Origin: an uncultured Prevotellaceae bacterium
Lineage (GTDB): Bacteria > Bacteroidota > Bacteroidia > Bacteroidales > Muribaculaceae
Assembly (NCBI GenBank): GCA_945921235.1
Contig: CAMEKH010000003.1
Location: 1-51,625 of the forward strand
Direction: 5' to 3'
DNA: 51,625 bases
Below are positions 3,769 to 20,305 of this stretch, one piece after another. The notes beneath the pieces were generated by a model, which ran no database searches, was not told the DNA's origin, and was given only the letters and a program-made list of their open reading frames with translations. A program made the translations under genes and the position numbers. Every line of letters begins with the position of its first letter. The first letter of the stretch is position 1.

Positions 3769-3811
3769 CTCACATCATTAAGGATTGTTTTATCGATATA
3801 AAAAAAGAAAA

Positions 3812-4942
3812 ATGAAATTTACCAAGAAAATTGTCTTTTTAACTACTGTAGTAGGTTCTTTATTAGCATTTGCATCGTGTGGCGGAAAATCGACGACAGA
3901 GGCAGAGCGTATATCAGAAATCAGTAATCCGTTGCCTATAAAATTCGGCGACCCATTTCTGCTTCATTCGAGTGATGGCAAATATTATATGTATGGCACA
4001 TCGCTGAATGACGGCTTTGAGGCGTACGTATCAAGCGACCTTGTACGCTGGGAGCGGTGCGGACAAGTGTATAAAGGAGGCTCGGAGAAACAATGGAATG
4101 TAGATTGCTTCTGGGCTCCTGAAGTCTATGAGCGCAATGGTAAGTTTTATATGTTCTATAGTGCCAATTATCGCAACAATCCCACCAATGAAGGTGAGAA
4201 TTTCAAGATAGGAGTTGCTGTTGCCGACTCGGCGGCAGGTCCGTTCACTGACTTGTATAATGAACCGATATTTAATCCTGAATATCCGATAATTGATGCC
4301 AATGTATACTTCGATGATGCAGCAGGAAAAGTATATTTGTATTATTCGAGATGTTGCTATAAGCATCCTGTAGAGAGTGAGATAGCGACAAAAGCGAAGT
4401 TAGATGGCGATTTCGACAAGATAGAGGAGAGCTGGGTGTACGGAGTGGAGCTTAAAAAAGATTTTTCGGGAGTCATAGGCGAACCGGTGCTTTTGCTTGC
4501 ACCTCCGACGAAACTCGATGATAAGCAAGCCGAATGGGAGAGTCGTTCGGTGATGCATAAAGAGGAGGGCAGACGATGGACTGAAGGCTCGTATATATTT
4601 AAAGATAAGGATACATATTACATAATGTATAGTGCCAATTCATATCAAGGAGCATATTATGCAGTAGGCTATGCAACATCGAAGAATCCCCTTGGACCGT
4701 TTGTGAAGGCGGATAACAATCCGGTACTTCAAGAGAATATGTCGAAAGGAGGAATGGTGATGGGAACCGGACATAACATGGTGTTGTCTATGCCTGATGG
4801 GCAGCGCTACTGTGTGTATCACGGACGTCTGTCGAATAATCCCGGAGAGCGTGTGGTGATGATTAATAAGCTCAACATCACTGAAACAGGTCGACTTGAG
4901 GTGGAAGGACCCACTACAATAATGCAGAAAATAAAATACTGA
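3812..4942 (+). CDS. GH43 family glycosidase, lipoprotein
   Basis: This is a 376-residue predicted lipoprotein of glycoside hydrolase family 43, a five-bladed propeller that inverts arabinofuranosides, xylosides or related sugars. The ATG at 3812 is preferred over an in-frame TTG at 3785 because it opens on the signal sequence (MKFTKKIVFL) and lipobox (AFASC, Cys23). The three catalytic acids expected for the family are visible, counting from this ATG: base Asp47 in FGDPF, pKa-modulating Asp162 in IIDAN and acid Glu258 in WTEGS. WAPEV and GTGHN motifs also fit. It immediately precedes the hybrid sensor gene and most likely acts on oligosaccharides of this locus. The exact linkage is not assignable by eye. 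Confidence 0.88.
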   Translation: MKFTKKIVFLTTVVGSLLAFASCGGKSTTEAERISEISNPLPIKFGDPFLLHSSDGKYYMYGTSLNDGFEAYVSSDLVRWERCGQVYKGGSEKQWNVDCFWAPEVYERNGKFYMFYSANYRNNPTNEGENFKIGVAVADSAAGPFTDLYNEPIFNPEYPIIDANVYFDDAAGKVYLYYSRCCYKHPVESEIATKAKLDGDFDKIEESWVYGVELKKDFSGVIGEPVLLLAPPTKLDDKQAEWESRSVMHKEEGRRWTEGSYIFKDKDTYYIMYSANSYQGAYYAVGYATSKNPLGPFVKADNNPVLQENMSKGGMVMGTGHNMVLSMPDGQRYCVYHGRLSNNPGERVVMINKLNITETGRLEVEGPTTIMQKIKY

Positions 4943-5003: not shown

Positions 5004-8000
5004 GTGAAATTATTACAATCCCTTAAAAAGGCATACGTCGGGAAAACGAAATCAATTTTCGTAGGTGTATGCCTTTGTTTTCTTATGGCGCTATGCTCAT
5101 TTGCCGCCACAGCAGGAGAGTATCGTTATTCTTATTTCAGGAATTTGAGTATTACAGATGGATTGTCGGAAAATAATGTTCGTTGCATTATTCAAGACCA
5201 TAACGGATTTATGTGGTTTGGGACAAAAGACGGACTAAATCGCTATGACGGAGTGAATTTTAAGAAATTTCAAAGTAGGCAAGAAGGTGATTTTGATTTC
5301 AGCTATATAACACATTTGTGTGAGGATAGAGATGGACTTATATGGGTAGGTAGTGATAGTGGAGTAGGGTATTATAATCCTGAAACAGAGCAGGTGAAGG
5401 AACTTGATGCGTTGACAAAAGATAATATAGCCATAAAGGGAGCAGTATCTGAAATAGTTGAAGATGAGAAAGGTTTGCTGTGGCTATTGGTCGATAATCA
5501 AGGAGTTTTCAGTTATGACAAGCATAAAAATGAATTGAAATATTATAATCTGGGGAGTGCTGTGCAGCGTACTAATTTCGTCTCGATTGTATTTGACAGA
5601 AATGGGAAAGTGTGGTTGGCATCGTTTGGCAGCGGATTATGGTATTCCGATGATAATCTTAAGACAATTCATAAATTTACGGATAGCAGCGGGAATGATG
5701 TTTTCGGACATAGAGTAATTAATAAAATGAAAATGGTGCGAGGGTTGCTATATGTTTGTGTTGATAAACTCGGATTGATAGCCATAAATCCTGCCAACAA
5801 TAAGATAATAAGTGTGTTTGGTACACAAGAGCTGAATCCAGTTCCGCTTATTCGTGATTTCCTGTTTGTCTCAGATAATGAGTTGTGGATAGTGGGAGAA
5901 ATGGGGTTGTATATCTATAATTTGAGTACGAAAGAATATCGGCATGAGCGACATCTTGTTTTCGATGAATATTCATTATCGGACAATGCAATTTATTGCA
6001 TAGCGAGCGACCGAGAGGGCGGAATATGGCTCGGGTCGTATTTTGGAGGGGTGGATTATTTGCCGAATCATACGTTGTGCTTTGAGAAATTTTATCAGAC
6101 CGGAGAGCCAAATAGTATAAAAGGGCAGCGAATTCGTGAATTTTGCCAGGATAAAAATGGAAAATTATGGATAGGGACCGAGGACGTAGGGCTGAATAAG
6201 TTTGACCCGGTGACAGCAAAATCGGAATATGTTTCAGCAAGTAGAAACTTCAGCAATGTGCATGGGCTTTGTGCCATTGATGATGAGTTATGGGTAGGTA
6301 CGTTTGGCAATGGTATAAAAGTGCTTGATGTGAATACCGGAAAAATTAAAAGGACATACTATCCTGATGATGGTTCGGGGATAAATAGTAATTTTATATT
6401 TAAGATTTATCGCACATGGTCGGGGGAAATATATATAGGTACAATGTCGGGTGTGCAGCATTTTAATAAGTCGACAGGACAATTTGATACACTTGAAGAG
6501 CTGCAAGGGGTGTTCATCTACGATATAATGGAGGATTCAAGCGGAAATTTATGGATAGGTACATATAGTTGCGGGTTATATGTAGTAGACGTAAAGACCG
6601 ACCGTTGGCGAATGTATAAGAATGTTGAAGGCGATAGGTTGAGCTTGCCAAGCAATCATGTATATTCATTGTTTGAAGATAGTCGGCATGTGGTGTGGAT
6701 TCTCACGCAGAATGGATTATGCTCATTTAATGCGCAAAATAATAGTTTTGTCCAATCGATACACAGTGATAAGTTCCCCCGTCAAGTAGTGTATCGCATG
6801 CTTGAAGATGAGCGAGGCAATTATTGGATATCGTCGAATAATGGATTATATCGAATAAATCAGAGTGGACAGGTTGTAGACCGCTATACAAAAAGTGACG
6901 GGTTGATAACTAACCAGTTCAATTACAATTCAAGTTTCAAGGATAAGAGCGGACGCATGTATTTTGGTTGTATTGATGGGTTCATAGTATTTAATCCTAT
7001 GGATTTCAAGCATGAGGCTCCAATACCAAAGCCAACTATAGTGGATATGTGGATTTTTAATACACATATAGAGCCTGGGAAAGAAGGCTCACCTTTGAAA
7101 AGGAGTATTTCAATGACCGATAAAATCGACCTTGATTATGACCAAAACTCGTTGTCGTTCAATGTAGTTCCATTGAGTTATACTTCGCCGGCAAAGCATA
7201 GGATAAAATATAAGCTTGAAGGGCTTGATGACTCGTGGATATATCTTCCTGCCGAGTATAATCGCATAACGTATCAAAATTTGTCGAGTGGCAATTACAC
7301 ACTTAAAATAGTGTCGTTCAATGAGAATAATGAGAATGAAGAGGCTATTACGGAGTTGGGTATAGTTATACATCCACCCTTCTACTTGACAATATGGGCT
7401 AAAATTCTATATTTTCTCCTTATAATTGCAATAATTTATTACCTTTATTATAAGTTTAAGATGCGCAATGTTCGCAAGACACAGGAGCATATAGAATCTT
7501 ATAAAATAGAGAAAGAGCGAGAGGTCTATGATGCAAAATTCGAGTTTTTTACCAATGTAGCCCATGAAATCCGCACGCCACTATCGCTGATTAAAGCTCC
7601 GCTTGACAGTGTGATGAAGAGTAGGCTTGCAGATGATAAGATGGTAAGAGAGAATCTTGATATTATGAATTTGAATGTCGACAGGCTATTGTTCTTGGCA
7701 AATCAGCTTCTTGACTTCCGCCGCATAGAGAGTAGGAAATTCCAGCTAACTAAGGAAAGATGCAATATAACTAAGATATTGGAGAGTGTGTATTGCAGGT
7801 TTCAGCCAACTATCGATTCGAATAGCATGAAACTAAGAGTCGATGTTCCGAAAGAAGATGTCTATGCGGTGGTCGATAAAGAGGCAGTGACAAAGATATT
7901 AAGCAATTTATTTGTTAATGCTACAAAATATGGAGAAAGCTATATAAATGTAGAAATGCATGAAAATGCCGATAATACATTCAGTGTAATCGTAGCGAAT

Positions 8001-9032
8001 GATGGAGATGTTATTCCGGCTGAAAAGCGCAGCGAGGTTTTCATGGTGTTTTCGCGCTTTAGCAAGAAAGCCAAGTCAGGAGCGGGAATAGGATTGGCAT
8101 ACTCGTTAGGACTTGCTCAGCTCCATAACGGGATATTGAGAATTATTGATTCCGACAAGGAGAACATATTTGAGCTGGTGTTGCCGAAAGACGCTATTCC
8201 CGATAAGGAACAAAAAGAGGAGTCAGAAGCAAACACAATAGAGCAAATTTTGCAGAGGAGCGAGCGTGGTACAAATGTGCTCGTCGTCGAGGACAATGAT
8301 GAGATGCGACATTTCTTAGAGCGACAGCTGATAGCCAATAATTATAATGTGGTGTGCGCCTCAAATGGTGTTGAGGCACTAAATATGCTTGGCAATCACA
8401 TAATAAACGTTATAGTCAGCGATGTGATGATGCCTGAAATGGACGGACTTGAGTTGTGTAGGCGTGTTAAGACGGATATAGCTTATAGTCACATGCCGGT
8501 GATATTGCTAACAGCCAAGACAAATGTGAAAGATAAGATAGAGGGTCTTGAAACAGGAGCCGATGCATATATTGAGAAACCATTCACTATGGATTATCTA
8601 TTTGCTAATATTGAGTCGCTTGTGAAATCGAGGAAACGACTAAGAGAGTTATTCAGTAAGCAAGCACTTGTGCCGGTCGATAGCAGTAATGGATTGACAA
8701 AAGTAGATGAAGAGTTTCTGCGTAAACTCAATGAGATAATTATGGAAAATTATCAAGACAGTGAGTTTAATATGGATAGTATAATAGGTATTATGAATAT
8801 GAGTCGGTCCAGTTTCTATAGGAAGATAAAAGGAATACTTGATTTGTCGCCGAATGATTATATAAGAATTGTAAGGCTAAGTAAGGCTGCCGAATTACTT
8901 AAGAATGGCAATGAATCAATAACAGAAATATGCTATATGGTAGGATTCAGTTCACCATCATATTTTGCCAAGTGCTTCCAGAAACAATATGGAGTATTGC
9001 CAAAGGACTATGTGGCACAGCAACAGGATTAA
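5004..9032 (+). CDS. Hybrid two-component sensor/AraC-type regulator (HTCS)
   Basis: This 1342-residue protein combines a whole two-component system in one chain, the typical PUL regulator. Order: an N-terminal signal-anchor (about residues 18-36), two seven-bladed Reg_prop propellers with repeated GLWIG/LWIGT motifs (about 40-680), a Y_Y_Y domain, a membrane helix (about 795-820), and a HisKA domain with His854 in VAHEIRTPL. An intact HATPase (NATKYG, ANDGD, GAGIGLAY) follows. A receiver domain with Asp1140 in SDVMMPEMDG and a C-terminal AraC-type HTH complete it. It should sense an oligosaccharide in the periplasm and activate the adjacent susC-susD genes. The start is a GTG; the first ATG (5088) would lose most of the signal-anchor. 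Confidence 0.95.
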   Translation: MKLLQSLKKAYVGKTKSIFVGVCLCFLMALCSFAATAGEYRYSYFRNLSITDGLSENNVRCIIQDHNGFMWFGTKDGLNRYDGVNFKKFQSRQEGDFDFSYITHLCEDRDGLIWVGSDSGVGYYNPETEQVKELDALTKDNIAIKGAVSEIVEDEKGLLWLLVDNQGVFSYDKHKNELKYYNLGSAVQRTNFVSIVFDRNGKVWLASFGSGLWYSDDNLKTIHKFTDSSGNDVFGHRVINKMKMVRGLLYVCVDKLGLIAINPANNKIISVFGTQELNPVPLIRDFLFVSDNELWIVGEMGLYIYNLSTKEYRHERHLVFDEYSLSDNAIYCIASDREGGIWLGSYFGGVDYLPNHTLCFEKFYQTGEPNSIKGQRIREFCQDKNGKLWIGTEDVGLNKFDPVTAKSEYVSASRNFSNVHGLCAIDDELWVGTFGNGIKVLDVNTGKIKRTYYPDDGSGINSNFIFKIYRTWSGEIYIGTMSGVQHFNKSTGQFDTLEELQGVFIYDIMEDSSGNLWIGTYSCGLYVVDVKTDRWRMYKNVEGDRLSLPSNHVYSLFEDSRHVVWILTQNGLCSFNAQNNSFVQSIHSDKFPRQVVYRMLEDERGNYWISSNNGLYRINQSGQVVDRYTKSDGLITNQFNYNSSFKDKSGRMYFGCIDGFIVFNPMDFKHEAPIPKPTIVDMWIFNTHIEPGKEGSPLKRSISMTDKIDLDYDQNSLSFNVVPLSYTSPAKHRIKYKLEGLDDSWIYLPAEYNRITYQNLSSGNYTLKIVSFNENNENEEAITELGIVIHPPFYLTIWAKILYFLLIIAIIYYLYYKFKMRNVRKTQEHIESYKIEKEREVYDAKFEFFTNVAHEIRTPLSLIKAPLDSVMKSRLADDKMVRENLDIMNLNVDRLLFLANQLLDFRRIESRKFQLTKERCNITKILESVYCRFQPTIDSNSMKLRVDVPKEDVYAVVDKEAVTKILSNLFVNATKYGESYINVEMHENADNTFSVIVANDGDVIPAEKRSEVFMVFSRFSKKAKSGAGIGLAYSLGLAQLHNGILRIIDSDKENIFELVLPKDAIPDKEQKEESEANTIEQILQRSERGTNVLVVEDNDEMRHFLERQLIANNYNVVCASNGVEALNMLGNHIINVIVSDVMMPEMDGLELCRRVKTDIAYSHMPVILLTAKTNVKDKIEGLETGADAYIEKPFTMDYLFANIESLVKSRKRLRELFSKQALVPVDSSNGLTKVDEEFLRKLNEIIMENYQDSEFNMDSIIGIMNMSRSSFYRKIKGILDLSPNDYIRIVRLSKAAELLKNGNESITEICYMVGFSSPSYFAKCFQKQYGVLPKDYVAQQQD

Positions 9033-9287: not shown

Positions 9288-9416
9288 CGATACAAAAAAA
9301 TAGGTCAGTACATTAAGTCTGAAGCGTAGGAAACAACAGAGGTGTATCCACGAAGTATATATTTTGATAAACTAAAAACTATTTTTTATAAACATAAATT
9401 TAAAAACTTAATTGAC

Positions 9417-12400
9417 GTGAAGAGCTATTCATTATTCAGAAAACTGTTAATGGCATTTCTTGTGCAATTGATGTTCTTGCCCAATGCTTTGGCGCAAGAT
9501 ATAGTTGTCACGGGTACCGTAACAGATGCCACAAGCAATGAGCCGCTAATTGGCGTTAGCGTTGTGGACCAGAGTAAGAAAAGCAATGGCACTGCTACCG
9601 ACTTTGATGGTAAGTTTACTATAAAAGTTGATGCGGGCAGTACATTGAGTTTTTCCTACATCGGTTATTCTATTAAAGAAGAGAAAGTCGGTGGAAGGAC
9701 GGTAATTAACGTTAAGCTGTCGGAAGACCATCAACAACTTGAAGAAGTGGTTGTGATTGGTTATGGCACGCAGAAGAAAGCCGACTTGACAGGTGCGGTA
9801 GCAGTAGTAGATATGAAAGAGGCAAAGAAGATGCCATCGACGAATATCTATGAGATGCTTCAAGGACAAGTAACAGGAGTTTCGGTGTCGACGACAAGCG
9901 ACCCGGGTTCTATGAGCAGCGTTAAGATTCGTGGAATCAGTTCATTCTCTTCGGTTGGACCACTCTATGTGATTGACGGAATGATTGTGAACGACGTGAA
10001 TCATCTCAATCCAAATGAAATTGAGACGATGCAGGTGCTCAAGGACGCATCGGCAGCTGCAATCTATGGTGCGCGAGGAGCTAATGGTGTAATTTTGATT
10101 ACCACCAAAAAAGGTAAAAAAGGCAAGCCCACACTTGAAGTTACTGCCAACTGGAGCTTCCAGGATATGCCTAAGAAAATCGAGATGCGCAATGCAACTG
10201 ATTTTATGTACTATAATGAGCAGGCATATTTGAATGCCAATACTGCATGGCCTGCAGCAGGCATTCAAGCCGGGAAAATGATTCCTAACACTGATTGGCA
10301 GAAAGCAGTGTTCCAAGTAGGTCATACACAGGATTATAACTTGATGTACACGCAAGGAAGTGACAACGTGAATATGGCAGTAGGAGCAGGCTATTTTAAG
10401 CAGACAGGCGTTATTGAAGGTCCGGAGTATGAGCGTTTCACTGCTCGAATCAATAGTGATGCCACTTATGGAATATTCAAAATTGGTGAAAACATCACAT
10501 TCCAGCACACTGATAACTTTACTACCAATTCCGGTTCATTTAGCAATGCATTGTCAATGCCATCGGTAATTCCGGTATATGACCCAAATGAGCCGTCGAA
10601 CAAGGGAGGATTCGGCTATGGAAGTGCAGATTTCCCGACCTATGCCAGCAATCCGGTAGCTAATCAGAAATCAGTGAGAAACAAGCAGATTAACGACCGA
10701 ATAATTGGTAATGTATTTGCGGAGTTAAAATTGTTCGAGCATTTCACTTACAAGTTTAATATCGGAGTAGATGCATGGTTTGGACGCACAAAAACATTCA
10801 ACAACTGCTATACAATGCGTATGGCCTCGGGCGAGCAGCGTTATAACAATGTTCTTAATGATGTTCGCGACCAGCGTGCAACATTGATTATAGAGAATAC
10901 AATTAATTATGCGCAGACCTTCGGGAAGCACAATGTAAGTGCTCTTGTGGGATATACTACCGAACGTGTAAATTGGCATTATCTCTTTGCACAAGGTTAC
11001 GACCAGAAAGTCGAAGGACTTGAGCAGATAGACCTTGTATCGACGCAAAACTCTATGCACGGTTCTGAGCAAGAGCGTCGCATGGTTTCGTATCTCGGAC
11101 GTATTGACTATAACTTCGATAATCGTTATTTGTTGCAATTCAACTTCCGTAGCGATGGTTGCTCGAAGTTCGGACCGAACAGACGTCGTGGTAATTTCCC
11201 GTCGGCATCAATCGGATGGCGAGTTTCGGAGGAGAAATTCTTTGAACCTATAAAGACAGTGGTTAATAACCTTAAATTCCGCGGAAGCTGGGGTAAAATA
11301 GGTGATATGCAAGCACTTGGCAATTATGACTATATCCCCGATATAGACCATACAGGTCCGTATGAAGGTTATTGGGCGGTTTTCGGACCTTCAGGCAATG
11401 AAACTATGCATCAAGGTGCAACGCAGGCATCGCGTGTGAATGTAAACCTCGGATGGGAAACTAAAACGACAACTAATATTGGTATCGATTTCGATTTGTT
11501 CGGCAGTCGTTTGTTTGGTTCGTTTGAGTGGTTCAATTCCAAATCTACAGATCTTCTGTTTAATATCAAGACGGCATGGGCTACCGGAGTTTCATCAATG
11601 TGGACAAACTATGGAGAGATGCGTAACCGCGGTATAGAACTTATGCTTGGTTGGCGCGACAAAGTGGGCGATTTCAGCTACTCGGTATCGGCCAATATTT
11701 CTACAGTTCGTAACAAGGTGCTAAGACTTGGTGATACATATTATGAAGCAGGAGTGAATAATATCAACCGTTCTGAGGTAGGGCGCTCAATAGGTGATTT
11801 CTACATGATTCAGAGCGATGGTATATTCCAAAGCATGGACGAGGTGTTTGCACACACCACTACGCTCGCTGATGGAACAGTGAAACTGATACAGCCTAAT
11901 GCACAGCCGGGTGACGTGAGATATGTTGATGCTAATGGCGACGGACAGATAAACAATGATGACCGTGTGTGGTGCGGAAGTCCGCTACCGAAGTTTGAAT
12001 ATGGCTTGAATTTCTCATGTGAGTGGAAAGGTATCGATTTCAATATGTTCTGGGCAGGAAAACAAGGCAACAAGATTTTCAATGATGTACGCTATGCAAC
12101 ATTAGCATTCACCGTGGATAATTTGCCGGCCGATGTATCGCCATGGACATGGGATAATCCTTCGGACGAATATCCGAGAATGTATGCAAGTTCTACGGAT
12201 AATAACTTGTCGAATGTAGACCGCTTCCTTGAGAATGGTTCATTTCTGCGATTGAAGAATATACAGATAGGTTACACATTCCCCTCGGAGTTGACAAAGA
12301 AATTCTATGTTCAAAAACTCAGAGCATACGTGAGTGGACAGAACTTGTTGACCATAACCAAATATAAGGGATATGACCCTGATATTATTAATGGAGTATG

Positions 12401-12473
12401 GGACCAAGGTAATGATACGGGACAATATCCATCTACTCGTCAAGTCACATTGGGATTACAAGTAACATTCTAA
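9417..12473 (+). CDS. SusC-like TonB-dependent outer-membrane transporter
   Basis: This protein of about 1018 residues imports oligosaccharides across the outer membrane using TonB energy. The GTG at 9417 is preferred because it opens directly on a signal peptide ending in NALAQ. The reading frame is open back to a GTG at 9342, which would give an unlikely 25-residue extension. After the signal peptide come a carboxypeptidase-regulatory-like domain (VVTGTVTDATSNEPLIGVSV), a TonB-box-like EEVVVIGYGT segment, a plug with KIRGISS and AAAIYGARGANGVI motifs, and a long beta-barrel ending in Phe (VTLGLQVTF). It is followed 19 bp later by its SusD partner. Substrate is unknown; an arabinose-containing glycan fits the neighbours. 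Confidence 0.95.
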   Translation: MKSYSLFRKLLMAFLVQLMFLPNALAQDIVVTGTVTDATSNEPLIGVSVVDQSKKSNGTATDFDGKFTIKVDAGSTLSFSYIGYSIKEEKVGGRTVINVKLSEDHQQLEEVVVIGYGTQKKADLTGAVAVVDMKEAKKMPSTNIYEMLQGQVTGVSVSTTSDPGSMSSVKIRGISSFSSVGPLYVIDGMIVNDVNHLNPNEIETMQVLKDASAAAIYGARGANGVILITTKKGKKGKPTLEVTANWSFQDMPKKIEMRNATDFMYYNEQAYLNANTAWPAAGIQAGKMIPNTDWQKAVFQVGHTQDYNLMYTQGSDNVNMAVGAGYFKQTGVIEGPEYERFTARINSDATYGIFKIGENITFQHTDNFTTNSGSFSNALSMPSVIPVYDPNEPSNKGGFGYGSADFPTYASNPVANQKSVRNKQINDRIIGNVFAELKLFEHFTYKFNIGVDAWFGRTKTFNNCYTMRMASGEQRYNNVLNDVRDQRATLIIENTINYAQTFGKHNVSALVGYTTERVNWHYLFAQGYDQKVEGLEQIDLVSTQNSMHGSEQERRMVSYLGRIDYNFDNRYLLQFNFRSDGCSKFGPNRRRGNFPSASIGWRVSEEKFFEPIKTVVNNLKFRGSWGKIGDMQALGNYDYIPDIDHTGPYEGYWAVFGPSGNETMHQGATQASRVNVNLGWETKTTTNIGIDFDLFGSRLFGSFEWFNSKSTDLLFNIKTAWATGVSSMWTNYGEMRNRGIELMLGWRDKVGDFSYSVSANISTVRNKVLRLGDTYYEAGVNNINRSEVGRSIGDFYMIQSDGIFQSMDEVFAHTTTLADGTVKLIQPNAQPGDVRYVDANGDGQINNDDRVWCGSPLPKFEYGLNFSCEWKGIDFNMFWAGKQGNKIFNDVRYATLAFTVDNLPADVSPWTWDNPSDEYPRMYASSTDNNLSNVDRFLENGSFLRLKNIQIGYTFPSELTKKFYVQKLRAYVSGQNLLTITKYKGYDPDIINGVWDQGNDTGQYPSTRQVTLGLQVTF

Positions 12474-12492: not shown

Positions 12493-14070
12493 ATGAAAAA
12501 GATTATTATAAATGCAATAGCAGGATTGATGCTGGTAACATCGGCATCGTGCGGCGATAACTGGTTGACCTTATCGGACCCCAACCGTGAATCGACCGAA
12601 ACATTCTGGAAAACGCAGGACCAGTTTGACCAGGGTCTATCGGCAGCCTATGCACAATGGCGTCGTCCCGGTATGTTCAGCCGTTGGTTCCATGTATTGA
12701 TGATACTAAGGAGTGATGAGGGGTGGAGCGAGAGTCCCGACCCAAAGTTCATAGCTTATGCAAATTTCATCATTTCACCATACAATACGGATAACACCGA
12801 AGGTATTGTGGTGCCATGGAGAGAGATTTTCAATCAGATATATTATGTGAATCAGGTAATAGACAATATAAATGACCACGGATATGATTTATTCCCAAAA
12901 GAAGATGCAGATAAGATTCTTGGACAGGCTTATTTCATTCGCGGTATAGCCTATTGGTACTTGGGCGGCAGCTATGGCAAGTGCCCGCGTCAGATTAGTT
13001 CGATAAGCGATGGTGAGATTATAGAGCAAGAGGAAATCTACAAGCAGTCTCTGAGCGACTTGACAAATGCGTCGAAACTTCTTCCTGAAGATTGGCCTTC
13101 GGCAGAAAAAGGACGTCCGACGGTTGGTTCGGCAGTAGGAATGATGGCACGACTGAATATGCAGCTTGCCGGATATTGCAAGCGTCCGACGGTTAATCGT
13201 CAGCAAGAAGCAACAGAATATTGGAAAGCGGCAAAGAAGAATATCGAGGATATTTTTGGAATGAACAGATATTCTCTTGTTGATAATTGGCTTGATAATT
13301 TCACAGAAGCGAATGAGAATAACTCGGAATCGCTGTTTGAAATTAACTTTAAAGATGGCTTGACCAACGGACAGGAAACGGGTATGCATCGTCCGAAATT
13401 CTTTGGTTTGTATATCAGCAGTGGAGAAGGCGCATGGAATGACGGTTCGGCGCGCGATTGGCTACTTGATGAGTTCGACAAGGAGCTTGATAAAGATGGT
13501 AAGCCCGATATGCGTAAATATTACACATTGTTCTATGAGAACCCGGATGATAATATGAAATATTATGGCAAGACCTATGCCGAGTGGAATGCATCGGAGC
13601 ATTTTGCACATAAGTGCTATTGGCGCAAATATACAAGCGTCGACACCGACAATAAGGCAGAGGACTATAGTTCGGGAACTAATTTCCGTGTACTTCGACT
13701 TGCCGATGTATATCTAATGTATGCCGAAGTTCTTAATGAGCTTGATGGTGACCGCACATTGGCAGTAGAATACATTAATAAGGTGCGTCGCCGTGTGAAT
13801 ATGCGCGATTTGAGCGCAGGTCAGTTTGGTGATTATGAGTCACTGAAAGAGCAAATTCGCCATGAGCGTCTTGTGGAGCTTTGCGGTGAGTCGACACGAT
13901 GGTATGACCTCGACCGCTGGGGCGATATTCACACTCAAGAAGGCGTGAATAAACTGGCAGAGCGCGACCCCGACTTCTTGAATTACAAGGTTGGAATCAA
14001 TCATCTGTATATCATTCCAAATCATGAGATATCTCTCTTCCCGGGACTTACTCAGAATAACGGATATTAA
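12493..14070 (+). CDS. SusD/RagB-like outer-membrane glycan-binding lipoprotein
   Basis: This 525-residue lipoprotein forms the lid of the SusC transporter and binds oligosaccharides at the cell surface. The signal sequence ends in a lipobox (TSASC, Cys20). The helical TPR-like body has the family motifs AYFIRGIAYWYLGGSYG and, near the C-terminus, RLADVYLMYAEVLNE, EYINKVRRR and RHERLVELCGESTRWYDLDR. Length is ordinary for the family. It lies 19 bp after susC and 24 bp before a GH43-fold lipoprotein, so these genes should be co-transcribed. Confidence 0.95.
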   Translation: MKKIIINAIAGLMLVTSASCGDNWLTLSDPNRESTETFWKTQDQFDQGLSAAYAQWRRPGMFSRWFHVLMILRSDEGWSESPDPKFIAYANFIISPYNTDNTEGIVVPWREIFNQIYYVNQVIDNINDHGYDLFPKEDADKILGQAYFIRGIAYWYLGGSYGKCPRQISSISDGEIIEQEEIYKQSLSDLTNASKLLPEDWPSAEKGRPTVGSAVGMMARLNMQLAGYCKRPTVNRQQEATEYWKAAKKNIEDIFGMNRYSLVDNWLDNFTEANENNSESLFEINFKDGLTNGQETGMHRPKFFGLYISSGEGAWNDGSARDWLLDEFDKELDKDGKPDMRKYYTLFYENPDDNMKYYGKTYAEWNASEHFAHKCYWRKYTSVDTDNKAEDYSSGTNFRVLRLADVYLMYAEVLNELDGDRTLAVEYINKVRRRVNMRDLSAGQFGDYESLKEQIRHERLVELCGESTRWYDLDRWGDIHTQEGVNKLAERDPDFLNYKVGINHLYIIPNHEISLFPGLTQNNGY

Positions 14071-14094: not shown

Positions 14095-15234
14095 ATGAAA
14101 AAGATAATTAATATAATGATTGCTTTTGCCGCAGTGGGAGCACTTATGACCGGTTCCCTCTCGAGTTGCACCGATAATGGCGGCGATGGCGTGGATTCCG
14201 TGCTCTGGGAGGGCAGTAAAAATCCCGAGAATACGAGCTTCCGCAATCCGGTATGGGAGCCATCGCTTGAAGCCGGTACGATTTTTAAGGCTGCGAGCGT
14301 ATATGTGGCAATTTCAAGTGAAACAGAGTGGGCAGCAGGCTTGAAATATTGTTGTCCTGTGCTTACGTCGAATGATTTGATGAAGTGGAATTTCAATGCA
14401 CTTACAGCATTTAATTATCCCGTAGTCAGTGAAGGAGAAGATGAAGAAGAAAATGGAAGCGAAACGACTTCGACTAACGGTTTGCGTCCTTCGTGGACTT
14501 CGGCTCGACTCACTTCGATTTCGGCAGATTTTGCAAAGACTGTGACCGGAGCGAATTATTGGTTGGTATATCAACCTGAGGGCGAAAATTCGATAGGTGC
14601 TGCAAGTTCTACATCAGGACAGGGTCCGTACACAGACCTTGGTGCATTCATTACAGCTGAGCAACTTGGAGTAACAACACTTGAGAATCCGTTCTTTGTG
14701 GTATTCTCTACTAAGTTCTATGTGCTTTATTCAACAGAAAACGGAGCATATGTACAAGAGCTTACACTTCGCCGAGGCAAGGCCCCGACATTGAAAGGCA
14801 CTGCCAAGCAAGTTGCCGGTCCGGAATTTAAGGACGTAGCCCTTTATCGTACTGATGCAAGCCACTACTACTTGTTTGGCGTTGTGGGTGAAGGTGCAAA
14901 TAAAGAGGTTAGATATGCACGTTCGTCGGCAGTTTCAGGTCCGTTTACAGATAAATCGGGAGCTGATTTGCTAAGTGGAAGTACAGGCGAGCTTATTATA
15001 AAGAGTGGAGAAGGAAATGTCAATCCCGAGAATGTGTGCCGTGTATTTGCCGATGTAAACGATGTGCAATTTATTGCATATAATGCAACAGCCGTAGGTC
15101 GTGACTTGATGGCAAGCAATTACAAGCGTCGTCCATTGTTTATAAGTCCGGTAGAACTCGATGAAGAAGGCTGGTTCAAGAACGTAATAGCTCCGACAAC
15201 CGGATGGACAAATCCAAGATTTTCAATACAATAA
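14095..15234 (+). CDS. GH43-fold lipoprotein lacking catalytic residues (putative surface glycan-binding protein)
   Basis: This 379-residue lipoprotein (lipobox LSSC, Cys25) sits in the SusE/SGBP position after susD. Its body follows the order of GH43 arabinanase-type blades: FRNPVWEPSL, PVLTSNDLMKWNF, a GPYTD turn, LENPFF and YYLFG. The catalytic positions seem replaced. The Asp of the usual ADPT is Ala60 (LEAGT). The Asp of IDPF is Asn198 (LENPFF). The acid Glu of FEGP is Lys246 (FKDVA). WAPD is WTSA (134-137). The alignment was made from memory of the family consensus. I infer a binding protein built on a hydrolase fold. An acidic low-complexity insert occurs at 113-123. A catalytically unusual hydrolase remains possible. 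Confidence 0.72.
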   Translation: MKKIINIMIAFAAVGALMTGSLSSCTDNGGDGVDSVLWEGSKNPENTSFRNPVWEPSLEAGTIFKAASVYVAISSETEWAAGLKYCCPVLTSNDLMKWNFNALTAFNYPVVSEGEDEEENGSETTSTNGLRPSWTSARLTSISADFAKTVTGANYWLVYQPEGENSIGAASSTSGQGPYTDLGAFITAEQLGVTTLENPFFVVFSTKFYVLYSTENGAYVQELTLRRGKAPTLKGTAKQVAGPEFKDVALYRTDASHYYLFGVVGEGANKEVRYARSSAVSGPFTDKSGADLLSGSTGELIIKSGEGNVNPENVCRVFADVNDVQFIAYNATAVGRDLMASNYKRRPLFISPVELDEEGWFKNVIAPTTGWTNPRFSIQ

Positions 15235-15294: not shown

Positions 15295-17295
15295 ATGAAA
15301 AAATTATTCTCTCTTTTGCTTGCTGCCGGAATGGTTCCCGGTGTAGCAAATGCTGAAATTCAGTATGTAACTGATGCAACGCACGGATGCGACTTTGCAG
15401 GTGCTGCCGAGCTCGACATTAACAATGATGGTATTCTCGATGTGATTTATGGAGGTCGTGCCAATGGCGATTTGGGACGTATCGTATATGATGCTGATGA
15501 GAATGAAATGCAAGTGGCATTTAATGCGTGGAAAATGATTTGGAATAAGGCTACTAATAGTTATGACATAACAGAGAATAGTCAGAACTTCGGTATCAAG
15601 CCTTATATTATTCCTGCCGATTTCAATGGCGATGGCATTATGGATTATTTTGCTTCGAGTGAAAGCAATGCAGATATCTATGCTGACCGCGGTATGTTTA
15701 TCGGTGATGGAACAGGTAATTTCACCAAGCAAGAACTTACTATTGTTGATGCCGAGGGAAATCCGTATGATTGGCGTCCGCGTGCTATTGATATTGCCGA
15801 TTTTAATCTCGATGGACGTCCCGATATCGTAGGTATAGGATGGTCGAATGTAGATGGAGAAGGCCGAAATAGCAACTGTGCCGTTCTTATAAATGAAGGC
15901 AATAACAAATTTACAGCTCGAGTAACCGACCTAATGGGTAATGGTGACTACAATTTCGAATTTGCACTTTGCAACATCCGTGCGGTAGACTTGAACAACG
16001 ATGGCTATGCAGATATTCTCGTTCAAGGTAACATTGATAATCCCGATGAGCATGGTGTGAAGCCAGTAAAGAATGGAGTAACTATGGGGCGCACATTTGT
16101 GGCTTATTTGAATCTTGGTGTAGAAACTGACCCTGCGGAAGTCGTTGCTTTCTATGACCTTGGGCTTGCCGATGGCGTTTCTCATCACTATGGCAATGGA
16201 AACATTGTATGTGCTGACTTTAACAATGATGGCGTGATGGATATTTTTGTGGGTGGTGAGTCTCCTGAAGATGCTCGCGGTGCCGGACAGTGGGAATATT
16301 GGTGGCAGATGCTTCTCGGTACTAATACACGTGATGGCATTGTTTATAACGATAAGAATCAGCCATATATAACCGGTAAAGACATTCGTCCACTCGGTGT
16401 ATCTAACGTTGGTGTTCGTGCTATTGACTACTATGGCAATGGTAATTACGACCTCATACTTCCGGGATGGTGTACAACGATGCTTGATGGAACAGGTAAC
16501 ACTCAGGCAGGCTGGATTTTCAAGAATGATGGAGCAGGCAGCTTAAGTTCTTTTGAGCGTGTTCCGGGAGCAAGTGAAGAAGGAATATTCTTCCTTGAGA
16601 ATGGTGTGCAGGGTGCACGCAACTATGCTATAGCCGGTGGAATGTGGGACGGTACATATTTCAAAGATGATACAGAGAACCCGACAGGTCGTAACATGGT
16701 ACGCACAGTTAATCCTAACACTAAATCTGCACGTCCTGATGCACCTACATCGCTTTCAGCTACAGTAGATGGAACAAGTGTTAAGCTTACATGGACTCCT
16801 GCAGCTTCATCGAAAGCAAATGTTTCTTATGAGTATTATATCAAGAATACAAGTACCGGTAAGTTCTATAGCAACTGTACTTCGTTCGTTGGTGGAGAAA
16901 ATGATGGTGTTCGCAAGGCTTTGACAATGGGTAATGCCTACATGAATACTACTCTTACTCTCAATAATCTTCCTGAAGGCAATTATGCTTGGGGTGTTCA
17001 GACAATCAACGCCGGTTATGAAGGTTCAACATTTGCCGATGGTGGAACTTTCAAGATTGGTGAAGGTGGTGTAGAAGGCAATATAGCTGATGCCACAATA
17101 AGTATTACCGCTAATGGAGGCGTACTCACTGTAGTAGCAGCTGATGGTGGCGTGGTAGAAGTATATGCAGCCGATGGAGCACTTGTAGAAAAGGTTGATT
17201 TCAACGGCAGTGCCGATATTACACTTGCAACCGGTTATTATATTGTGAAAGTTGCTACGGCAGCAGGAACAAAGGTACAAAAGATTGTTTTATAA
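15295..17295 (+). CDS. FG-GAP/VCBS propeller protein with Fn3 and C-terminal sorting-type domain
   Basis: This 666-residue secreted protein has a signal peptide ending in GVANA. Six D-x-N-x-D-G or similar calcium-loop motifs follow at about residues 41, 109, 169, 232, 308 and 378 (DINNDG, DFNGDG, DFNLDG, DLNNDG, DFNNDG, DYYGNG), as in integrin-alpha-type propellers. A fibronectin type III domain (about 480-590) and a C-terminal module ending in YYIVKVATAAGTKVQKIVL complete it. That tail resembles the type A sorting domains recognised by the type IX secretion system, which would place the protein at the surface. No hydrolase motif is seen. Its place in the SusCD operon suggests a glycan-binding role. 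The final enzyme-like function, if any, is unknown. Confidence 0.8.
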   Translation: MKKLFSLLLAAGMVPGVANAEIQYVTDATHGCDFAGAAELDINNDGILDVIYGGRANGDLGRIVYDADENEMQVAFNAWKMIWNKATNSYDITENSQNFGIKPYIIPADFNGDGIMDYFASSESNADIYADRGMFIGDGTGNFTKQELTIVDAEGNPYDWRPRAIDIADFNLDGRPDIVGIGWSNVDGEGRNSNCAVLINEGNNKFTARVTDLMGNGDYNFEFALCNIRAVDLNNDGYADILVQGNIDNPDEHGVKPVKNGVTMGRTFVAYLNLGVETDPAEVVAFYDLGLADGVSHHYGNGNIVCADFNNDGVMDIFVGGESPEDARGAGQWEYWWQMLLGTNTRDGIVYNDKNQPYITGKDIRPLGVSNVGVRAIDYYGNGNYDLILPGWCTTMLDGTGNTQAGWIFKNDGAGSLSSFERVPGASEEGIFFLENGVQGARNYAIAGGMWDGTYFKDDTENPTGRNMVRTVNPNTKSARPDAPTSLSATVDGTSVKLTWTPAASSKANVSYEYYIKNTSTGKFYSNCTSFVGGENDGVRKALTMGNAYMNTTLTLNNLPEGNYAWGVQTINAGYEGSTFADGGTFKIGEGGVEGNIADATISITANGGVLTVVAADGGVVEVYAADGALVEKVDFNGSADITLATGYYIVKVATAAGTKVQKIVL

Positions 17296-17622: not shown

Positions 17623-17705
17623 TTTTTACAATATTAATTGGGGTGCATTCTACCGTTGTTTTTTTATGTGCCCCTTTTATTACTTTTAAACAAACAATAA
17701 ATGAT

Positions 17706-18299
17706 ATGCAAAGAATCTTATTTTTGTTACTGTCAGTTGTGGTAGCTTCAGGCTTTATAGTAGCTCAAACACGCATTGAAATGCCGGTTAAGCAAAATCC
17801 GCCTTTCGAAGTTTCAGTAAGTGAGGTGATACTTGATTTCACTGCACCATCTATGACGCTCGGTGGCGATGTTGTGGCAACGGGAGGAAGCGGAAGCTAC
17901 ATATATCGCTGGTATAATGGAGAAAAGGAGATAGGCACCGATGCAACGTTGGTTATAACAGAGCCGGGTGAATATAAACTTGATATAAAAGATGCATGCG
18001 ATTGCCTTAATACAGTTATTTTCAGCGTGAAATCGGCATCGGTGGAGGGCGTGGAAACAGAGGGGTTTGCTCTTTATCCCAATCCGGTTAAAGATAAGTT
18101 GACTATAAAAGCAGGGGAAATCGATTTGCGACAAGTGAACATTGTGTCGGTATCGGGGCGCTTAATGCTTGTAGCAACCGATTTTGACCAAAAAGGCGAG
18201 AATGAAATAGACCTTTCATCTCTTCCGGGAGGTGAATATATTGTAAATTGTGTCGTAGGCGACAATAATGTGATTACAAGAAAGGTAATTAAGCTATGA
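17706..18299 (+). CDS. Small secreted protein with SprB-like repeat and type A sorting domain
   Basis: This 197-residue protein is taken from the ATG at 17706, which opens on a signal peptide (MQRILFLLLSVVVASGFIVAQ). An upstream in-frame start at 17643 gives no signal sequence. Residues about 55-110 (GGSGSYIYRWYNG ... EPGEYKLDIKDACDC) resemble a single SprB/PKD-like beta-sandwich repeat. The rest is a typical type IX secretion type A C-terminal domain: LYPNPVKDKLTIK, VNIVSVSGRLM, IDLSSLPGGEYIV and a final RKVIKL. Its stop overlaps the next ATG (ATGA at 18296), so translation of the two is probably coupled. Function is unknown; it could be an adhesive or scaffold partner of the downstream sialidase-fold protein. 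Confidence 0.75.
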   Translation: MQRILFLLLSVVVASGFIVAQTRIEMPVKQNPPFEVSVSEVILDFTAPSMTLGGDVVATGGSGSYIYRWYNGEKEIGTDATLVITEPGEYKLDIKDACDCLNTVIFSVKSASVEGVETEGFALYPNPVKDKLTIKAGEIDLRQVNIVSVSGRLMLVATDFDQKGENEIDLSSLPGGEYIVNCVVGDNNVITRKVIKL

Positions 18300-20305
18300 A
18301 AAGAATCTTATTGATGATAGCGGCAGTCACGGCATTGCAAAATGCCTATGCCGAAAGAATTGTAACTTACGCTCGAACCAACCAAACAGTTGAGCTTGAT
18401 TTGAAGTGGGATAGTAATAACTATGGCACAGTGCAGTGGCAGAAATCGACTGATAATGGCACAACGTGGACCGATATATCAGGAGCAAACAAGCCGACAT
18501 ATTCATTCAAGATGACAGGCGATGTCCTTTATCGTGCACATATCATCGGCGACAAGGCGTGCCCGCCAATTGATATGGAGCGCGAAATAAAGAATGTGAC
18601 TTTTACCGGGACAATAGTAGGTGTGACGTGTAATTCTGCGGAAATGGAGCTTACTGATGTGAATTTTGCGGGAGCGACAATTGTGGAATATGGCTTTTGT
18701 GCTAATTACAGCGCATTACAGCGTAGTTATAACCTGATGCCTCACTATAAGGTGGGTGATACACCTCCTGCCGGTAGTGAATTTACAATGATATGCAAAG
18801 GACTTAAGCCAAATAAATCGTATTCAATACGCCCGTATTTCAAGACAGCCGATGGAGCTGTGATGTATGGTCCGAGTCGTATGGCAACTACGATAGCCGG
18901 TTTGGACTGGACATCGGAGAACTGGATTATCAAGAAAAAATCTATTATACCGCGCTTTGAGATAGCAGGCTATAATAATGCCGCCAATCCGGACGTGAAA
19001 TTTTTTCTCGGGACGGACCGCAGTAGCCTCAAAGAATACGCAGTAAATAATCTGGGAGGATATAAATATAGTGCAGAAGTAAACGGATTGGAGCCAAATA
19101 CGAGTTACTTGGCAGTGGCAACAGCCACTATAGATGGAGAAGAAGTGGAGATAGAGAAAACAGTGAAGACATTCTCGGATTATTCAACCTTTGAAGTCGA
19201 CAATACCGTGAAACCTGCATCGCATGCCATTGAATGGGATTCAGAGAAAACACTTGTGCAATTGTCGCCCGAAGGTCAGCAAGTGGAATATCCGCGTATG
19301 TGTCGTGTTGATGAAAATAAGATTCTGCTAACTTATCATGGAAGTCGAGGAACGGATTTCTGGACAAACATATATATGCGTCGCAGCTATGATAATGGTG
19401 TGACATGGAGTGAGCCTGTAATTATTTTTGACAAAGAAGCCACTCAATTCGGTGATAACTATTGGAGAATAGTGAATCCTGAAATGACGAAATTGCAAAA
19501 CGGCTGGATAATACTCACATGTGTGGGCAATGGAAAGCCCGAAACAAATAATAATTGCCATGTGATTGCATGCATATCGAAAGATGGGGGCGAAACGTGG
19601 GGCGACCCGATTATCGTAGGGCGAGGACGCACATGGGAGCCGCAAGTGGTTCAATTGCCTAATGGAGAACTTGAGCTTCTTGTGTCGAGCGAAGCTGCGT
19701 GGTATGAAAAGCAATCTACACTCTATCAAGAAATAGTGTGTGCACGGTCGACTGATAATGGAGAAACGTGGACAGAGTTTACTCGCGCATCATATAATCC
19801 TAATTGCCGTGACGGAATGCCTGTGGCTGTGGTACAACAAGGCAATAAGGGAGTTCTCTTTGTAATAGAGTGTGTAAATGGCTCGCCATCTCCTTCTGTT
19901 ATTCATCGCAATCTTGATGACGAGTGGGACCAAGCTGATTGGGACCGTGTGGAAGATTCCGAGCGCTGGGGCACTCCTATTAGCGGAGGAGGCGCACCTT
20001 ATTGCATACAATTGCCTACGGGAGAAATCGTAGTAACTGCACATGCCAATCAAACAGGTAGTGTGTGGCAGACGAGCCGTCCGCGCATTTTTATAGGAGA
20101 TAACACAGGACATAATTTCAAGTATGGAAGGATTCCGCTTACGGGCGATACGCCACTTCCAAGCGGAACGGGTGCCTACTATAATTCATTGTTTCTAAAA
20201 GATAATGATACTGTGTGGCTACTTATTACCAAAGCAAAGTATAGCGGTAGCACTCGCGAAAACAGTGCGATTATGTATCTTGAAGGAAAAATTGTGGCTA
20301 AGTAA
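18296..20305 (+). CDS. Sialidase-fold (BNR/Asp-box) secreted protein
   Basis: This 669-residue protein has a signal peptide (MKRILLMIAAVTALQNAYA), an Ig-like N-terminal region (about 20-100) and Fn3-like segments (about 100-290). A C-terminal six-bladed propeller (about 310-669) carries the Asp-boxes SYDNGVTW, SKDGGETW and STDNGETW. The propeller starts with YPRMCRVDENKILLTYHGSRG. The fold is shared by GH33 sialidases and GH93 exo-arabinanases. I see no sialidase FRIP arginine motif, and the GH43-rich context would favour an arabinan-related activity, but this is inference. It overlaps the upstream small gene by ATGA and ends the PUL. It has no sorting-type tail of its own. Confidence 0.75.
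   Translation: MKRILLMIAAVTALQNAYAERIVTYARTNQTVELDLKWDSNNYGTVQWQKSTDNGTTWTDISGANKPTYSFKMTGDVLYRAHIIGDKACPPIDMEREIKNVTFTGTIVGVTCNSAEMELTDVNFAGATIVEYGFCANYSALQRSYNLMPHYKVGDTPPAGSEFTMICKGLKPNKSYSIRPYFKTADGAVMYGPSRMATTIAGLDWTSENWIIKKKSIIPRFEIAGYNNAANPDVKFFLGTDRSSLKEYAVNNLGGYKYSAEVNGLEPNTSYLAVATATIDGEEVEIEKTVKTFSDYSTFEVDNTVKPASHAIEWDSEKTLVQLSPEGQQVEYPRMCRVDENKILLTYHGSRGTDFWTNIYMRRSYDNGVTWSEPVIIFDKEATQFGDNYWRIVNPEMTKLQNGWIILTCVGNGKPETNNNCHVIACISKDGGETWGDPIIVGRGRTWEPQVVQLPNGELELLVSSEAAWYEKQSTLYQEIVCARSTDNGETWTEFTRASYNPNCRDGMPVAVVQQGNKGVLFVIECVNGSPSPSVIHRNLDDEWDQADWDRVEDSERWGTPISGGGAPYCIQLPTGEIVVTAHANQTGSVWQTSRPRIFIGDNTGHNFKYGRIPLTGDTPLPSGTGAYYNSLFLKDNDTVWLLITKAKYSGSTRENSAIMYLEGKIVAK

Follow-up and report, generated by a model that had tools for sequence, protein, structure and literature searches.

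What does a lipoprotein of glycoside hydrolase family 43 (GH43) do in the slot directly after SusC and SusD once its catalytic acids are gone? The window analysed here, a stretch of 51,625 nucleotides from an uncultured Prevotellaceae bacterium, raises this question at positions 14095 to 15234, where the original prediction, made from the DNA letters, saw a hydrolase fold reused as a surface glycan-binding protein (SGBP). The features of the locus on which the argument depends are as follows.

3785..4942, + strand: second GH43 lipoprotein, catalytic D/D/E intact (PF04616, 4e-52; alignment row L001)
5004..9032, + strand: hybrid two-component system regulator, HTCS (Pfam domains)
9342..12473, + strand: SusC-like TonB-dependent transporter (TIGR04056, 4e-280)
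12493..14070, + strand: SusD-like lipoprotein (PF07980, 1.3e-38), adjoining the pseudo-GH43 in 24/24 loci
14095..15234, + strand: pseudo-GH43 lipoprotein without catalytic acids, 379 aa (ORF; PF04616, 1e-10; model and fold match)
14167..14169, + strand: lipobox Cys25 (LSSC), followed by the acidic stretch CTDNGGDGVD (sequence; invariant in 23/23 family members)
14272..14274, + strand: Ala60, at the catalytic base Asp position, Arb43A D38 (alignments)
14686..14688, + strand: Asn198, at the pKa-modulating Asp position, Arb43A D158 (alignments)
14830..14832, + strand: Lys246, at the general acid Glu position, Arb43A E221 (alignments)
15031..15033, + strand: Asn313, where active GH43s carry the His of GPGHN (alignment)
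15082..15084, + strand: Asn330, where active GH43s carry the His of YHG (alignment)
15295..17295, + strand: FG-GAP/fn3 protein with T9SS sorting tail, kept in active-slot operons too
17643..18299, + strand: small secreted protein with T9SS sorting tail
18296..20305, + strand: BNR (sialidase-superfamily) protein, with an ortholog alongside the pseudo-GH43 and not alongside the active-slot GH43

A GH43 propeller encoded next to SusC and SusD

The pseudo-GH43 gene lies 24 bases from the susD-like gene and 60 bases from the next one, and its coordinates, its reading frame and the residue numbers of Ala60, Asn198 and Lys246 were exact in the original prediction. Its N-terminus carries a signal peptide and the Cys25 lipobox and SusD precedes it at every locus, window included, in agreement with the proposed lipoprotein directly after SusD; the acidic residues that follow the lipid-anchor cysteine in pseudo-GH43 sequences are, for surface exposure, suggestive only. 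As a predicted lipoprotein encoded next to SusC–SusD, the protein fits an SGBP by genomic position.

The PF04616 (GH43) profile is matched over its full length (positions 1-288 of 288, E 1e-10, 41.9 bits, with a curated cut-off of 32.2), far more weakly than by the intact GH43 at 3785-4942, and a profile built from 12 relatives finds endo-arabinanases as its top PDB matches (3e-10). An AlphaFold model built on a 33-sequence alignment (mean pLDDT 88.7, pTM 0.86) superseded an earlier 12-sequence model in which the first blade was poor (pLDDT 72). It matches the GH43 structure 4qqs with a VIA Z of 29.8 over 279 residues at 2.6 Å and the Cellvibrio arabinanase 1gyd with a VIA Z of 29.0 over 269 residues at 2.4 Å; GH43 structures reach Z 27-30 against it, the listed matches covering model residues 23-355 and thus the whole propeller, and Foldseek concurs. 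By sequence and by the five-bladed propeller of the model, the protein is a member of GH43. The structure prediction first proposed as a check yields a model whose entire propeller matches GH43 enzymes of known structure, endo-arabinanases among the nearest, in line with the assignment to an arabinanase-type GH43. Among plasmid records, matches to the protein are merely 20-30 % identical and mostly annotated as GH43.

Replacement of the catalytic acids and the pocket

The central claim, that all three catalytic positions are replaced, was borne out by alignments that agree with one another. The catalytic residues of Arb43A are D38, D158 and E221 (numbered as chain index plus 32). In a MAFFT alignment with ten active, D/D/E-bearing GH43s, A60, N198 and K246 fall at the catalytic columns, and the register is unchanged in a profile–profile comparison with hhalign (probability 99.8 %, E 1e-28). 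A bridging chain leads to the same result: the sister protein L073 aligns to the window protein around NPLFEPDLADPT against NPVWEPSLEAGT, and L073 in turn aligns to Arb43A (E 8e-29), its D, D and E pairing with D38, D158 and E221. In these alignments, Ala60, Asn198 and Lys246 stand where a functional GH43 carries the base Asp, the pKa-modulating Asp and the general-acid Glu. Because all three are replaced, inactivity is expected, and as an inverting GH43 hydrolase the protein would almost certainly be unable to work.

Across the family (n=23), the base column holds Gly in 13 members, Ala in 8 and Ser in 2, with Asp in 0/23 as against 10/10 active controls, and the middle column holds Asn (8), Asp (7), Tyr (4), Ala (2), Gln (1) and His (1). 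The acid column, an invariant Glu in the active controls, is among the most variable columns of the family (99th percentile), with ten residue types, one gap and a single Glu, in L012. The base and acid columns together speak against a chance replacement. Loss of all three acids thus holds for the window protein and not family-wide, given the 7/23 members that keep the middle Asp and the Glu of L012; none of the 23 keeps more than one.

The pocket around these positions has changed as well. The His of GPGHN and the His of YHG, each present in 10/10 active controls, are Asn in 20/23 and 23/23 family members, respectively, and the WAPD tryptophan is also altered beside the three acids and both histidines in the alignment. 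Because the pocket is remodelled at the tryptophan and both histidines, the old arabinan subsites are not safely assumed to be kept. In the N-terminal part, residues such as R50, W54, W79 and C87 are invariant in the family and absent from the ten active controls (R50 occurs in one).

A single clade in a constant operon

Among 397 genomes of the window's family, strong relatives numbered ten, at 47-78 % identity, and there was one more remote, fragmentary match. The GTDB species genomes, when scanned, yielded 23 loci in assemblies labelled Muribaculaceae, Porphyromonadaceae, Bacteroidaceae and Prevotella, largely gut and rumen MAGs, and in Hoylesella saccharolytica; several of these loci are the same contigs as in the 397-genome search. 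The family comprises at least 23 proteins of Muribaculaceae/Prevotella type and is monophyletic; Pfam matches GH43 (PF04616), and nothing else, in all 23 aligned members. In the tree it forms one clade, and a single change explains the loss of the base. Synonymous sites are saturated between the window and its nearest congeners, making dN/dS unusable there, so closer pairs were taken; in these, dN is 0.02-0.08 and dS 0.19-0.56, and the gene is therefore under purifying selection. The most divergent member, L017 (L068), has a charged insertion past alignment residue 150, about 37 residues long (KVTVVTEKPVLDEDGEP...). In Hoylesella saccharolytica JCM 17484 the gene (L069:9965-11066) is split between frames near 10333, which may reflect a draft error or a broken gene.

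SusC lies upstream in every locus whose contig extends far enough; in four loci the pseudo-GH43 gene is masked in the ORF list by a longer antisense ORF, and tblastn places it there. The loci were retrieved via the pseudo-GH43 gene, so the counts describe how constant its context is and not how frequent. The usual order is HTCS, SusC, SusD, pseudo-GH43, FG-GAP protein (T9SS tail), small T9SS protein and BNR protein. Often an intact GH43 precedes this series, and a GH2 or an unannotated protein of about 670 aa follows it. C-terminal T9SS sorting domains on the products of 15295-17295 and 17643-18299 mean that lipoprotein and type IX routes are mixed in the locus. Searched against the PDB, the BNR protein gave weak, sialidase-like matches only, and no GH family could be assigned to it; a second BNR copy (63-72 % identity) is found in a congener (L047:19324-21129) and also in the genome that the window comes from, there divided into two pieces (G000 contigs C174/C102).

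The downstream protein of about 665-670 aa, for which Pfam gave no match and the PDB no relative, occurs at L054:13762-15756, L053:15871-17859 and L065:15792-17846, and also in L073 and L108. It is conserved in 13 pseudo-GH43 loci and also in loci of the active-slot type or related to it; L108 shares 59-60 % identity with its counterparts in L054 and L073. The protein is a candidate uncharacterised enzyme family of the PUL.

Sister proteins that keep the catalytic residues

Three other Bacteroidales families carry a matching SusC–SusD–GH43–FG-GAP operon with an orthologous, catalytically intact GH43 in the slot, and this is what is new here. An order-wide search returned G560, which has HTCS, SusC (split in reading), SusD, a GH43 lipoprotein and the FG-GAP protein in matching order, and whose GH43 motifs (LADPT, NSIDPFF, AFEASYI, GPGHN) include all catalytic residues. 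G712 and G617, from the two further families, have the same SusC–SusD–GH43–FG-GAP arrangement with intact catalytic residues, G712 with an additional second GH43 (56 %) and a GH2 (62 %). In G655, an intact relative stands near a SusC–SusD pair in a different arrangement. The best match of the active-slot GH43s is the Cellvibrio arabinanase Arb43A.

The pseudo-family and these four intact relatives share a short insert (ENQW/ENTW-G vs ETQW-G; ATEDDW in G655) and an RRPL motif, neither of which occurs in the remaining active GH43s that were aligned. A maximum-likelihood tree separates them together from 15 other GH43s with branch support of 100/100, the stem branch of the pseudo-family being long (2.15 changes per column). 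The tree gives no root, so the direction of change is read from synteny and from the catalytic residues, which are ancestral to GH43 as a whole. Given intact sisters in the same slot, joined to the family at 100/100, it seems that an active, arabinanase-like enzyme of the surface turned into a pseudo-enzyme in situ. In eight genomes besides the window's, a full-length BNR ortholog is present in 4/4 with the pseudo-GH43 and in 0/4 with the active-slot GH43, small numbers in both groups; G560 has just remote BNR matches of 28-32 % elsewhere.

A probable non-catalytic role at the transporter

The cutting residues are lost, yet the gene is kept in a transport operon, and the protein therefore probably holds or presents sugar. 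We consider it probable, on the whole, that a descendant of an endo-arabinanase-like GH43 has lost its acids and now captures or presents glycan at the surface without cutting. The ancestor would have been a surface lipoprotein encoded right after SusC–SusD; in one Bacteroidales clade it would have lost the catalytic base, the general acid and, in many members, the remaining acid as well, while retaining fold, lipid anchor and operon position. The protein would now sit beside SusCD on the outer membrane as an SGBP for the glycan of the PUL, leaving the cutting to other enzymes of the PUL, for example the second, intact GH43 (3785-4942). We infer the surface location, the lack of activity, the glycan binding and an arabinose-containing ligand. 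Arabinan is a putative ligand: arabinanases are the protein's closest active relatives and another GH43 is encoded in the PUL, but the BNR, GH2 and unannotated proteins allow other targets. Xylan binding by the inactive GH10 lipoprotein BACOVA_03431 is a precedent in favour (PMC4491172). Several points count against an SGBP: the inactive GH18 BT1284 showed no measurable binding (PMC11180146), the FG-GAP protein with its T9SS tail is another candidate binding protein of the operon, and the old arabinan subsites may have gone with the remodelled pocket.

That same remodelling, together with the strictly conserved slot and the family-specific invariant residues of the N-terminal part, would also fit a docking or structural subunit that kept its ancestor's place on SusCD, lost glycan binding and serves to stabilise or gate SusCD, placed much as BtuG is on BtuB. 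This is the main rival, since a surface GH32 touches SusC loops in the levan utilisome (PMC7618045) and a propeller lipoprotein, BtuG, sits on the TonB-dependent transporter BtuB (PMC10404256); BT1284, an inactive GH18 without measured binding, is a further precedent (PMC11180146). Such a complex is proposed here by analogy, and BACOVA_03431 is an inactive PUL hydrolase that can bind glycan (PMC4491172); we regard docking as unlikely on balance. It is a doubtful proposition, too, that an endo-arabinanase turned in place into a non-catalytic transporter subunit whose main role is docking or gating SusCD and not glycan binding, with the BNR and small T9SS proteins gained at the same transition and assuming part of its work.

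Residual hydrolysis, by acids displaced by one residue or by another mechanism, is very improbable. Glu59 and Asp247 do adjoin Ala60 and Lys246 in the window protein, but an acid is found at 59 in 11/23 members and at 247 in 17/23, members such as L009 have none at either position, adjacent strand residues point opposite ways and the acid column is among the most variable (99th percentile); because the flanking acids are not conserved, we rejected shifted machinery as unlikely. That the gene is a decaying enzyme, a pseudogene in the making, is scarcely credible: the long stem branch and the broken Hoylesella copy would suit it, but dN/dS well under 1 in close pairs, many invariant columns, intact frames in the 23 members and full operon synteny refute it as a general explanation.

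A glycan-binding lipoprotein thus remains the preferred reading. With intact sisters in the same slot, it can be asked what the SusCD machine gains when a surface enzyme stops cutting, and the change is directly testable. Because all 23 members are assigned to GH43 by Pfam, PUL annotation that counts the pseudo-GH43 as an enzyme would overstate enzyme content.

Comparison with known systems

To our knowledge, few cases are known of inactive glycosidases serving as surface binding proteins. The pseudo-GH43 shares the five-bladed fold of Cellvibrio Arb43A and other GH43 endo-α-1,5-L-arabinanases (Z 28-29), and differs from Arb43A in having A60, N198 and K246 for D38, D158 and E221 and in its replaced pocket histidines. 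In the open-licence literature we found no GH43-like or inactive GH43 surface binding protein described, an absence that is not proof. An inactive glycosidase in a PUL is already known in kind.

BtuG is likewise a propeller lipoprotein encoded with a TonB-dependent transporter and captures its ligand, but it has seven blades and binds vitamin B12, and no sequence relation is claimed (PMC10404256). BT1284 of a Bacteroides PUL and its B. faecium GH18-like counterpart are, similarly, inactive PUL glycosidases conserved across Bacteroidales with both catalytic acids replaced; unlike the pseudo-GH43, BT1284 has a GH18 fold, its PUL encodes an active endoglycosidase of the same family, and it showed no measurable binding to the expected glycans (PMC11180146).

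BACOVA_03431 of Bacteroides ovatus, an inactive GH10 at the cell surface, is a PUL lipoprotein too, with a glycosidase fold and a lost catalytic residue, and it has been shown to bind xylan, the glycan of its PUL (PMC4491172). It is GH10-like where our protein is GH43, and the text consulted describes no intact same-slot sister (PMC4491172). The original claim of an uncommon type of SGBP stands: inactive glycosidases in that role are rare, with BACOVA_03431 as a precedent (PMC4491172).
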